Shown here: positions 5,180 through 8,275 of the stretch, one piece after another
Position numbering within the stretch: the stretch's first letter is position 1
Layout: every line of letters starts with the position of its first letter
Assembly: GCA_946886245.1 (NCBI GenBank)
Contig: CAMPIF010000014.1
Span: 1 to 21,846 of the forward strand
Direction of reading: 5' to 3'
Source of the DNA: Ectopseudomonas composti
Lineage (GTDB): Bacteria > Pseudomonadota > Gammaproteobacteria > Pseudomonadales > Pseudomonadaceae
Length of the DNA stretch: 21,846 bases
Program-made: the position numbers and the translations under genes
The notes under the pieces: generated by a model
What the model was told of the DNA's origin: nothing
Databases searched by the model: none
The model's input: only the letters and a program-made list of their open reading frames with translations

Positions 5180-5193
5180 TTGATCATGGTCAA
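5180..5193. promoter_or_regulatory. FNR/ANR box between hemN and nrdD
   Basis: TTGATCATGGTCAA matches the consensus TTGAT-N4-ATCAA at 9 of 10 fixed positions. Its centre lies about 28.5 bases before the TAGATT -10 candidate of nrdD, the spacing of a class II FNR-type activator site near -41.5. It can also be read toward hemN, although no equally good -10 was found on that side. This predicts oxygen-controlled expression of nrdD and probably hemN by ANR or a relative. Confidence 0.75.
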
Positions 5194-5282: not shown

Positions 5283-7301
5283 ATGTATCTCGGTCAATCG
5301 CCGCACCGACCGCGTTCCCTGTTCAAACGAGATGGCAATGAAGTGCCTTTCGAGGCGTCCAAGATAGAGTGCGCGATTGCCGCCGCCGGCCGGGCCAGCA
5401 ACCAGTTCGGAGCCCGTGAGGCCAGAGACCTGACCGAGGCGGTGCTTGCCCGCCTGCTGGAGTTCCGTAGCCTGGAGGTGGAGCAGGTACAGGACAAGGT
5501 CGAGCTGGTGCTGATGGAGGCCGGTTACTATGCAACTGCCCGCGCCTACATCGTCTACCGCGAGCGCCACGGGCGCCTGCGCCGTGAGCGTAAGCAACTG
5601 ATCGACGTTGCCGCCTCGATGAACGAGTACCTGTCGCGCGAGGACTGGCGGGTACAGGCCAACGCCAACCAGGGTTACTCGCTGGGCGGGCTGATCCTCA
5701 ACGTGTCCGGCAAGGTCACCGCCAACTACTGGCTGGACGAGGTGTACAGCAGCGGCATCGGCTGGGCGCACCGCGAGGCCGACCTGCATATCCACGACCT
5801 CGACATGCTCGCCGGCTACTGCGCCGGCTGGTCGCTGCGCACCCTGCTGCACGAAGGACTCAACGGCATCCCTGGGCGGGTCGAGGCCGGGCCGCCCAAG
5901 CACCTGTCCAGTGCCCTCGGACAGATGGTCAACTTCCTCGGGACCCTGCAGAACGAGTGGGCAGGGGCCCAGGCCTTCAGCTCCTTCGACACCTACCTGG
6001 CGCCCTACGTGCGCAAGGACAACCTGAGTTTCGAGCAGGTGCGTCAGTCGCTACAGGAGTTCATCTACAATCTCAACGTGCCGTCGCGCTGGGGCACCCA
6101 GACGCCATTCACCAACCTGACCTTCGACTGGGTCTGCCCGGAAGACCTGCGCGAGCAGGTGCCGGTGATCGGCGGGCAGGAGATGCCGTTCTGCTACGGC
6201 GAGCTGCAGGCCGAGATGGAGCTGATCAACCGCGCCTACATCGAGGTGATGATGGCCGGCGACGCCAAGGGCCGGGTGTTCACCTTCCCGATCCCGACCT
6301 ACAACATCACCCACGACTTCCCCTGGGACAGCGACAACGCCACGCGCCTGTTCGACATGACCGCGCGCTACGGCCTGCCGTACTTCCAGAACTTCCTTAA
6401 CTCCGACATGCAGCCCAATCAGGTGCGCTCCATGTGTTGCCGCCTGCAGCTGGACGTGCGCGAGCTGCTCACACGCGGCAACGGCCTGTTCGGCTCGGCC
6501 GAGCAGACCGGCTCGCTGGGTGTGGTGACCATCAACTGTGCGCGCCTGGGCTATCGCCACCGGCAGGATCTGCCGGGCCTGCTGCGGCGCCTCGACGAGC
6601 TGCTGGACATGGCCTTCGAGAGCCTGGAGGTGAAGCGCAAGGTGATCCAGCACCACATGGATGCCGGCCTCTATCCCTACACCCGACGCTACCTGGGCAC
6701 CCTGCGCAATCACTTCTCCACCATCGGTGTCAACGGCCTGCACGAGATGCTGCGCAACTTCAGCGGCGACCGCGAGGGCATGCACACCGAAGGCGGCCGC
6801 CAGTTGGCGCTGCAGGTGCTGGATCATGTGCGCGCGCGCCTGGTGCAGTTCCAGGAGCAGAGCGGCCACCTGTACAACCTGGAGGCCACCCCGGCCGAGG
6901 GCACCACCTACCGCTTCGCCAAGGAAGACCGCAAGCGCTTCCCCGACATCCTCCAGGCCGGAACGCCCGAGGCACCGTACTACACCAACTCCTCGCAGCT
7001 TCCGGTGGGCTTCACCGATGACCCCTTCGAGGCGCTGGCGCTGCAGGACGAGCTGCAGTGCAAGTACACCGGCGGCACCGTGCTGCACCTGTACATGGCC
7101 GAGCGGATCTCCTCGGCGCAGGCCTGCAAGCAGCTGGTGCGTACCGCGCTGTCGCGCTTCCGCCTGCCGTACCTGACCATCACCCCGACCTTCTCCATCT
7201 GCCCGGTGCATGGCTACCTGGCTGGTGAGCACGAGTTCTGTCCGAAGTGCGACGAGGCGCTGCTGCAGAAGCAGCAGTGCTGCGGCGACTGCGGTGGCTG
7301 A
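5283..7301 (+). CDS. nrdD: NrdD, class III anaerobic ribonucleoside-triphosphate reductase, main chain without the glycyl-radical segment
   Basis: Large subunit of the oxygen-sensitive RNR that makes dNTPs anaerobically. The 672-residue chain has an N-terminal ATP-cone (about residues 10-100), then the ten-stranded barrel with the conserved Cys in AGYCAGW (C180), PSRWGTQTPFTNLT, and a double Cys RSMCCR (C394, C395). Near the end, FSICPVHGYLAGEHEFCPKC (C640, H643, C653, C656) is the zinc region that in ordinary NrdD proteins directly precedes the glycyl-radical loop. Here the chain instead ends in a Cys-rich tail, QQCCGDCGG, and a UGA; no R-V-x-G-Y motif is present. That motif is in the next ORF, in the same frame. 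ATG 5283 has AAGGAGG six bases upstream. Alternatives to a true split are read-through of the UGA or a sequencing error; see the next feature. Confidence 0.93.
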   Translation: MYLGQSPHRPRSLFKRDGNEVPFEASKIECAIAAAGRASNQFGAREARDLTEAVLARLLEFRSLEVEQVQDKVELVLMEAGYYATARAYIVYRERHGRLRRERKQLIDVAASMNEYLSREDWRVQANANQGYSLGGLILNVSGKVTANYWLDEVYSSGIGWAHREADLHIHDLDMLAGYCAGWSLRTLLHEGLNGIPGRVEAGPPKHLSSALGQMVNFLGTLQNEWAGAQAFSSFDTYLAPYVRKDNLSFEQVRQSLQEFIYNLNVPSRWGTQTPFTNLTFDWVCPEDLREQVPVIGGQEMPFCYGELQAEMELINRAYIEVMMAGDAKGRVFTFPIPTYNITHDFPWDSDNATRLFDMTARYGLPYFQNFLNSDMQPNQVRSMCCRLQLDVRELLTRGNGLFGSAEQTGSLGVVTINCARLGYRHRQDLPGLLRRLDELLDMAFESLEVKRKVIQHHMDAGLYPYTRRYLGTLRNHFSTIGVNGLHEMLRNFSGDREGMHTEGGRQLALQVLDHVRARLVQFQEQSGHLYNLEATPAEGTTYRFAKEDRKRFPDILQAGTPEAPYYTNSSQLPVGFTDDPFEALALQDELQCKYTGGTVLHLYMAERISSAQACKQLVRTALSRFRLPYLTITPTFSICPVHGYLAGEHEFCPKCDEALLQKQQCCGDCGG

Positions 7302-7334
7302 ACCACTATTCCATCCACAGCAAGGAGCAACACC

Positions 7335-7484
7335 ATGAATGCACCCATGCAACTTCCCGAAGCCCAGCGCCAGCGCTGCGAGGTCTGGACCCGCGTGATG
7401 GGTTACCACCGTCCGGTGGCGGCCTTCAATCTCGGCAAGCAGTCCGAGCATCGCGAGCGCCAGCATTTCGCCGAGCCACGCTGA
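7335..7484 (+). CDS. Separate 49-residue glycyl-radical domain of class III RNR
   Basis: This small ORF encodes the part missing from NrdD. Its residues RCEVWTRVMGYHRPV followed by GKQSEH match the C-terminal glycyl-radical region of class III reductases (E. coli NrdD has RVCGYLG followed by FNAGKQEE). G23 in R-V-M-G-Y is the predicted radical glycine. A good Shine-Dalgarno, AAGGAG (7322-7327), lies seven bases before the ATG, so independent translation is likely. It is in the same frame as nrdD (start-to-start distance 2052 bases, 684 codons), with only the UGA at 7299-7301 between them, so read-through would give a fused protein. I infer that it binds NrdD and is activated by NrdG, whose gene follows. 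C15 could add to the NrdD zinc site. The homology is clear by eye; independent function is inference. Confidence 0.88.
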   Translation: MNAPMQLPEAQRQRCEVWTRVMGYHRPVAAFNLGKQSEHRERQHFAEPR

Positions 7485-7494
7485 GTCAGCCCGG

Positions 7495-7523
7495 AGCCCG
7501 GGCCATCGGTGATGGCCCGGGCT
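7495..7523 (+). terminator. Very strong hairpin between the glycyl-radical ORF and nrdG
   Basis: AGCCCGGGCCATC (7495-7507) pairs perfectly with its reverse complement (7511-7523) across a GGT loop, 13 base pairs beginning 10 bases after the stop codon. Only two T residues follow, so termination would be partial at best. It may act as an attenuator or RNA-stabilising element that lowers nrdG output relative to nrdD. The nrdG Shine-Dalgarno and start lie beyond it. Confidence 0.6.
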
Positions 7524-7552
7524 TCGCCATGTCCGCCATTGGAGCCACGAGC

Positions 7553-8275
7553 ATGCCTTCAGTGCCTTCGCGTCATGCCTTTCGCCCGCTGCGCATCGGC
7601 GGGCTGCAAGCCATGACCACCCTCGACTACCCCGATCATCTGGCCTGCGTACTGTTCTGCCAGGGCTGCGCCTGGCGTTGCCGCTACTGCCACAACCCGG
7701 AGCTGATCCGCTGCGGCGGCCCCACCGAATGGAGCTGGAACAAGGTGCTGGGCTTCCTGCGGCAGCGCCAGGGGTTGCTGCAGGCAGTGGTGTTCTCCGG
7801 TGGTGAGGCGACCCTGCAGCCGGCGCTGCCGTCCGCCATGCGCCGGGTGCGCGAGCTGGGCTTCAAGGTCGGCCTGCACAGCGCCGGGATCAAGCCGGCT
7901 TCCTTCGGTCGCGCGCTGGCGCACTGCGACTGGCTCGGTTTTGACGTCAAGGCGCTGGAGGAGGACGCGGCGCTGATCACCGGCGTCAGCGGCAGCGGCC
8001 AGGCCAACTGGACCAGCCTGGAGCTGCTGCTGGACAGCGGCGTGGACTACGAATGCCGCACCACGGTGCACTGGGATCTGTTCGACTGCCGGCGCCTGCA
8101 GCGCCTGGGCGAGCGTCTGGCGGCCCTTGGCGTGCGGCGCTTCGCCGTGCAGCTGGCGCGTCCGCAGCAGATGCTCGATGGCGAGCTGGGCGCGGCTGCC
8201 ACACCGGCTCAGGCCGCCGAACTCTGGCCTTACTTCGCCCAGCTGTTTGAGCGTTTCGAGCTACGCGCGGCCTGA
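7553..8275 (+). CDS. nrdG: NrdG-like glycyl-radical activase of anaerobic RNR
   Basis: Radical SAM activase expected to generate the glycyl radical of the class III reductase. The 240-residue protein has the CQGCAWRCRYCHNPEL motif: cluster ligands C39, C43, C46 (CxxxCxxC) preceded by C36, plus a GGE-type motif (FSGGEATL) and the LGFDVKAL strand. It is longer than E. coli NrdG (154 residues) and resembles the pseudomonad and Thermotoga-like activases. ATG 7553 has GGAG eight bases upstream; ATG 7529 is possible but less well placed, and the open frame further upstream to 7247 overlaps nrdD and is spurious. It follows the separate glycyl-radical ORF, its presumed substrate. Its stop is one base from the convergent ftrD stop. 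Confidence 0.9.
   Translation: MPSVPSRHAFRPLRIGGLQAMTTLDYPDHLACVLFCQGCAWRCRYCHNPELIRCGGPTEWSWNKVLGFLRQRQGLLQAVVFSGGEATLQPALPSAMRRVRELGFKVGLHSAGIKPASFGRALAHCDWLGFDVKALEEDAALITGVSGSGQANWTSLELLLDSGVDYECRTTVHWDLFDCRRLQRLGERLAALGVRRFAVQLARPQQMLDGELGAAATPAQAAELWPYFAQLFERFELRAA

Follow-up and report, generated by a model that had tools for sequence, protein, structure and literature searches.

Must a class III ribonucleotide reductase (RNR) carry its glycyl radical on the catalytic chain itself? To our knowledge, the radical of class III RNRs is held inside NrdD. The question is raised by an nrdD locus of Ectopseudomonas composti, located on a 21,846-nt stretch of contig CAMPIF010000014.1 (the whole stretch is referred to here as the window), in which the catalytic subunit NrdD ends without a glycyl-radical loop and the loop is found in a 49-codon open reading frame (ORF) of its own. 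Our reading, which we hold with high confidence, is that the window encodes a class III RNR made of two polypeptides, in which the small protein, a stand-alone glycyl-radical domain (GRD), would be activated at Gly23 and dock into NrdD, and that GRDs encoded by viruses would be exchangeable subunits.

A sequence-only reading of this DNA had described an NrdD without the glycine loop, followed by a 49-residue loop ORF with its own AAGGAG and then by nrdG, and this arrangement is borne out by the sequence and by the complementary coverage of the Pfam NRDD profile (Table 1). The nrdD ORF comprises 678 codons, with GTG as the called start, an ATG at 5283 as an alternative, and TGA (7299-7301) as the stop; its translation ends with CPVHGYLAGEHEFCPKC and a short tail, and the R-V-x-G-Y loop is absent from the C-terminus (CPVHGYLAGEHEFCPKCDEALLQKQQCCGDCGG). 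NrdD matches the ATP-cone (PF03477, 2.7e-18), NRDD (PF13597, 3e-171), and NF006126 (1117.5 bits). It is not a class II enzyme, as its best family is NF006126 and its Pfam domain is the class III NRDD, and class II models cover the ATP-cone part only. Of the 562 positions of the NRDD profile, NrdD accounts for 2-529 and the 49-codon ORF for 531-562 (3e-171 and 3.8e-08, respectively). The small ORF contains EVWTRVMGYHRPV...NLGKQ and carries RCEVWTRVMGYHRPVAAFNLGKQ; PF13597 was the only family that its product (the 49-mer) matched at E <= 1 in a Pfam scan, and the protein database holds 938 homologs at E <= 0.01, including a 48-residue copy in P. aeruginosa. A gene for a dedicated radical-SAM activase, nrdG, lies directly downstream. 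With the NRDD match of the large chain stopping at 529 and the glycyl loop in a separate ORF, the window enzyme is a split variant of class III RNR and not a standard member.

Table 1. Features of the nrdD locus in the window
Feature	Position	Strand	Basis
nrdD, class III RNR catalytic subunit (ATP-cone and NRDD barrel), without glycyl-radical loop	5265..7301	+	profile matches
Predicted zinc site, C646-x2-H649 ... C659-x2-C662, remaining on the large subunit	7200..7250	+	alignment
Ribosome-binding site AAGGAG of the small gene	7322..7327	+	sequence; seven bases ahead of ATG
49-codon gene, stand-alone GRD	7335..7484	+	NRDD 531-562, homologs, pN/pS
Codon of Gly23, predicted radical glycine of R-V-M-G-Y	7401..7403	+	structural alignment with T4 NrdD
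nrdG, radical-SAM activase, NrdG2 type	7553..8275	+	TIGR02495 2.3e-59; ATG 7553, alternative 7529
16-pair hairpin in the gap between GRD gene and nrdG	7492..7526		folding of 7485-7552
Anr/Dnr-like box TTGATCATGGTCAA upstream of nrdD	5180..5193		one mismatch to TTGATNNNNATCAA

The sequence-only reading had also placed a zinc region and then a Cys-rich tail at the end of NrdD. Of these, the conserved feature is the zinc region, as C646, H649, C659, and C662 are invariant in a 47-row alignment, and by analogy with class III RNR structures the four ligands would hold a metal; the tail varies among relatives. In many of them, not in all, the region corresponding to 7272-7298 is rich in CC or CxxC, and it might be a redox tail.

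In the window, NrdD and the small ORF lie in one frame, with a single TGA and 11 sense codons between them; read-through could therefore not be dismissed from the window itself, and relatives were needed. A genome scan with NrdD as the query identified 576 relatives, of which the best 80, mostly from Pseudomonas and Stutzerimonas, were used together with the window (n = 81), and a GRD ORF was sought up to 900 nt past the zinc-site NrdD. A separate GRD ORF was found in 78 of the 81 sequences. The three exceptions run into a contig end, two of them (L064, L071) at or soon after the end of NrdD and the third, in Pseudomonas lini CC269, after 548 nt of repeats (L061:5980-6528) that occupy the place where the GRD gene would be expected. 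Among the 78, the frame offset between NrdD and GRD is 0, 1, and 2 in 19, 27, and 32 cases, the stop codon of NrdD is TGA in 67, TAA in 9, and TAG in 2, and the gap ranges from -26 to 410 nt (median 32). A Shine-Dalgarno-like motif precedes the chosen GRD start in all 78 (77 loci and the window), compared with 13% of all ATGs in the 80 loci, although the choice of start favored such motifs. Purifying selection on the small gene is strong: the ratio of nonsynonymous to synonymous polymorphism (pN/pS) is 0.086 for its 31-codon core in 78 sequences, with a ratio of 4.1 for the +1 frame control. When 20 same-frame loci were re-read (16 from the Pseudomonadaceae draw described below and 4 from the Allochromatium family), 19 could be matched by motif, each with 1-4 stops between the two parts; the twentieth (L265) was not matched by motif, and a TAG is reported there by the profile survey. 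One genome, G706, has its GRD gene next to nrdG and about 9 kb away from nrdD, as would be expected if the GRD is the substrate of NrdG. Selenocysteine insertion or read-through at the TGA was rejected on account of the varied frames and stop types. Post-translational joining was also considered and rejected, with no intein domain in the window NrdD or the 49-mer in a Pfam scan.

We then surveyed whole genomes with the Pfam NRDD profile, in draws that all include the centre genome (G001) and in which other genomes recur. NRDD was identified in 53 of 148 Pseudomonadaceae genomes, as separate body and GRD matches in 46, as a single match with internal stops in 6, and as a fragment in 1. The claim that the radical segment is normally a separate subunit therefore holds for 52 of these 53 genomes, and a continuous NrdD in related genomes, which would have spoken against it, was found in none of the 53. 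In Gammaproteobacteria, 21 of 229 genomes have NRDD (16 split, 4 fused, 1 weak), and in Pseudomonadota 57 of 398 (13 split, 41 uninterrupted, 2 of an unrelated type with separate parts, 1 weak); most of the uninterrupted Pseudomonadota NrdD that were read are E. coli-like. In Chromatiaceae, the Allochromatium family, NRDD is present in 97 of 146 genomes, and among the matches listed only those of G810 and G930 are uninterrupted through position 562. The split is also found in plasmid records of Sulfuricurvum (Campylobacterota) and of Cupriavidus necator, whose megaplasmid pHG1 reportedly carries the genes of a 1999 study of Alcaligenes eutrophus nrdDG. Both records annotate the small ORF as 'nrdD, anaerobic ribonucleoside-triphosphate reductase', and the databases thus hold it unexplained. 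Fused NrdD occurs in Acidiphilium, Actinomyces, and Geoalkalibacter, and a search for proteins with an Acidiphilium-like fused GRD gave 2906 matches, those named among the best 120 being mostly from Actinomycetota and also from Achromobacter. Overall, the split extends far beyond pseudomonads and is found across many other Proteobacteria.

A few other arrangements were seen in these surveys. A distant NrdD type (L194 in G755, L197 in G691) has its glycyl loop behind a stop (TAG, read in L194) and is possibly an independent split. Many NrdD bodies of the Allochromatium family are interrupted around profile position 158 by an in-frame insert (e.g., L252:1636-4641), probably an intein; the one NrdD of this kind that was scanned holds a LAGLIDADG domain. 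On a Bradyrhizobium plasmid (L083) and a Thiothrix plasmid (L223), GRD and nrdG are annotated and the nrdD body is unannotated, its frame apparently broken.

Stand-alone GRDs are also present in viruses and prophages. Viral contigs were scanned with 11 GRDs as queries, which identified 184 relatives. Of the best 80 that were used, 79 were classed as short, stand-alone GRDs, with 4 left open by a contig end; L146 was called long merely through an open upstream frame. No NrdD body was found near the GRD in any of these 80 loci (tblastn at E <= 1e-4 over the fetched stretch). A longer viral protein, used as the query of another scan, gave 29 loci, partly overlapping the first 80, among which L237 and L239 have a body and a separate GRD and L235 is fused. 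We also searched whole virus records with NRDD: all 40 records selected by length from the first 80 loci have a single match, the GRD alone, and among 12 further records, one of them counted previously, 11 matched (9 with the GRD only, 2 with body and GRD) and 1 did not; the record of L235 lay outside this search. Altogether, 48 of the 50 distinct matching records carry only the GRD and 2 carry the whole split enzyme.

Virus genes neighbor these loci, among them genes for terminase (L088, L110), portal (L130, L160), virion protein (L119), tail fibre (L165), and tape measure (L231); 7 of 10 neighbor proteins tested were assigned to virus genes. In L103, the GRD is surrounded by thymidylate synthase, clamp, DNA polymerase, clamp loader, and UvsX-like genes. 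Viral GRDs also occur in hosts with the split enzyme: two viral contigs (L231, L091) match prophages in G813 and G918 with 100% identity over about 12.1 kb, each of these genomes possessing, besides the GRD-bearing prophage, a split nrdD and GRD of its own, and L166 shares 93% identity over 1165 bases with a contig of the split-NrdD genome G928. Of the three GRDs in Allochromatium humboldtianum, one accompanies nrdD and the other two stand alone, one of these amid phage structural genes. In the archaeal virus ANMV-1, a 144-residue ORF is annotated as an anaerobic RNR, and its NRDD match is limited to 519-562. Stand-alone GRDs share the motif ER[QT]xCE[VI]W, whose Cys is present in 61 of 63 distinct cores of body-less viral loci, in 40 of 40 distinct bacterial-split cores, and in 2 of 7 fused cores; the viral copies therefore belong with the split type. 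The predicted radical Gly is present in all these GRD cores, including the 63 body-less viral ones. These counts concern loci with a core fitting the search pattern, which 8 of 101 viral and 3 of 98 bacterial loci lack.

At least three Cys precede the GRD core in 15 of 97 viral loci (L160:5878-6150, L091, L132, L166, and others, including the fused L235), and the GRD protein of L160 matches NRDD 513-561; some of the viral copies may thus come with a zinc site of their own. Positions 110-154 of PHROG phrog_4132, a phage family of unknown function with 179 positions, match viral GRDs.

From these observations, a working cycle can be proposed. NrdG would place the radical on Gly23 of the 49-mer, which would dock into NrdD and hand the radical to an NrdD cysteine, so that nucleotide reduction starts. 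Should oxygen cleave the chain at this glycine, the 49-mer would be the only part in need of replacement, and fresh copies, from host or virus, would take the place of the cut one; viral GRDs would thus serve the host's split NrdD, and synthesis of deoxynucleoside triphosphates would continue during infection. The predicted activation by NrdG is supported by operon linkage. Docking is supported by a structure model of both parts as one read-through chain, in which the 49-mer is predicted to sit within the NrdD fold and, in a comparison with T4 NrdD (1h78), Gly23 falls at T4 Gly580 if the alignment is continued without gaps from the last aligned pair (720/587). A profile search of the PDB with the 11 GRDs gave none at E <= 1, for which the short profile is the probable reason. 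Replaceability after oxygen cleavage is made more plausible by the stand-alone viral copies, and viruses likely use a lone GRD to keep the host enzyme running.

Several points weigh against this reading. Activation, docking, and exchange are predictions, and docking is partly imposed by the model, because its chain was joined with the TGA as Trp and fused homologs were included in the alignment. Virus records may be fragments, and a missing NrdD body is then no proof of absence. Several viral GRDs lie in virion-structure modules, away from nucleotide genes, which leaves their role unsure. Isolated phages gave a single match in 50,697 records (ANMV-1); the evidence for viral copies thus comes almost exclusively from contigs of uncultivated viruses and from prophages. 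Finally, in a tree of 63 NrdD bodies, the split/fused label requires 5 changes, at least 3 of them forced (starred branches), and fused forms are nested among split ones; the split was therefore gained or lost more than once. The 63 bodies were drawn from 141 after removal of 12 rows (chiefly fragments, insert-bearing, duplicate, or mislabelled) and thinning of E. coli-type rows to 4 and of loci L001-L069 to every third; L171, L194, and L197, with automatic labels that were wrong or doubtful, were left out of the labelling.

Other explanations of the locus have to be weighed as well. A single fused chain, arising through recoding or read-through at the TGA, or a split that is a sequencing error, would be in keeping with the common frame of the two ORFs in the window, but in 59 of the 78 sequences the GRD is in another frame, all three stop types occur, and the GRD has its own start with a Shine-Dalgarno-like motif; with the intervening stops in the 19 same-frame loci and the unlinked genes of G706, we regard this as extremely improbable. 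Decay of nrdD into a pseudogene in this strain would account for a reading frame broken relative to fused NrdD, and for nothing else; against the strong purifying selection on the small gene and an arrangement common across the family, we give it practically no weight.

Repair and interference also have to be considered. PF01228, the domain of pyruvate formate-lyase (PFL) type and of the YfiD/GrcA family, is not matched by the 49-mer and is absent from 9 of 10 genomes tested, and a PFL spare part was rejected on these grounds. The broader idea that the 49-mer is merely a GrcA-like repair part, for an intact NrdD or a PFL elsewhere in the genome, draws on a logic resembling that of YfiD/GrcA (PMC8683613), but an intact fused NRDD as its target was found in none of the 53 Pseudomonadaceae genomes with a match, and we consider it very improbable. 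Because fused NRDD is lacking there and the PFL-type domain is mostly absent, the 49-mer must be the normal subunit, which may also serve repair. For the viral copies, it is conceivable, if unlikely, that they act as decoys, tying up NrdG or NrdD of the host and so blocking its class III RNR, as might be suggested by GRDs without an nrdD body of their own and by those in structural, probably late, modules. Working parts would be expected to keep the predicted radical Gly and the stand-alone-type Cys, as the body-less viral cores do (63 of 63 and 61 of 63), and the nucleotide and replication genes around the GRD of L103 and the whole split enzyme in 2 of 50 virus records also argue against decoys. 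We lean slightly towards seeing the GRD as an exchangeable cartridge, with which bacteria would lose only a 49-residue peptide to oxygen and viruses would recharge the host enzyme; it would be the first glycyl-radical spare part outside PFL.

Among known systems, the window enzyme shares the NRDD barrel, the C-terminal zinc site, and the NrdG activase with fused NrdD (T4 1h78/1hk8, Thermotoga 4coi, Prevotella copri 8p23), in which the radical is described as lying within NrdD (PMC11226230). Both have an R-V-x-G-Y-like glycyl loop, and the ATP-cone of the window NrdD occurs in some, not all, fused NrdD; the difference is that in the window this loop forms a 49-residue protein of its own, the break falling directly behind the zinc site. 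The split class II NrdJa/NrdJb of P. aeruginosa is likewise a pseudomonad RNR encoded by two ORFs of one operon, but it is B12-dependent, and its small part is reported to mediate disulfide reduction and not to bear a radical (PMC4520616). YfiD/GrcA and the phage-encoded T4 Y06I, both PFL spare parts, are also small stand-alone glycyl-radical proteins; unlike the 49-mer, they are described as proteins of about 14 kDa that repair an intact enzyme with its own domain (PMC8683613). Phage nrdA and nrdD genes may also come in pieces (Dwivedi et al., 2013; PMC3653736), through introns, inteins, homing endonucleases, and unknown breaks, with no conserved free GRD in the portions of that account available to us.

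No description of a split NrdD with a free GRD was found in the open-licence literature, where an early mention in the 1999 Alcaligenes eutrophus paper is possible. The accessible text of a 2014 review mentions the class II split and no class III split (PMC4009431), and papers on ANME-1 viruses name NrdD as a viral gene, its size passing without remark in the parts at hand (PMC4372165, PMC9894754). A family-wide RNR phylogeny excluded sequences of <400 residues (PMC9531940), which could explain why the GRD gene was missed. Because the GRD is encoded separately, experiments restricted to NrdD and NrdG would miss the radical subunit. Spare parts for other glycyl-radical enzymes were considered possible and unvalidated in 2021 (Andorfer et al., 2021; PMC8683613), a question that becomes directly testable, with natural viral versions available.

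Two further elements lie next to the genes of the split enzyme. The hairpin between the GRD gene and nrdG (-36.4 kcal/mol, z -3.1) is local, because many relatives have only a few bases in that gap, and it is perhaps a repeat element or an expression divider. The box upstream of nrdD was compared with TTGATNNNNATCAA, the Anr/Dnr consensus. It adjoins a divergent hemN-like gene, and the window also has genes for nitrate reductase gamma and NnrS; judged by its gene content, the window appears to be an anaerobic-respiration island.
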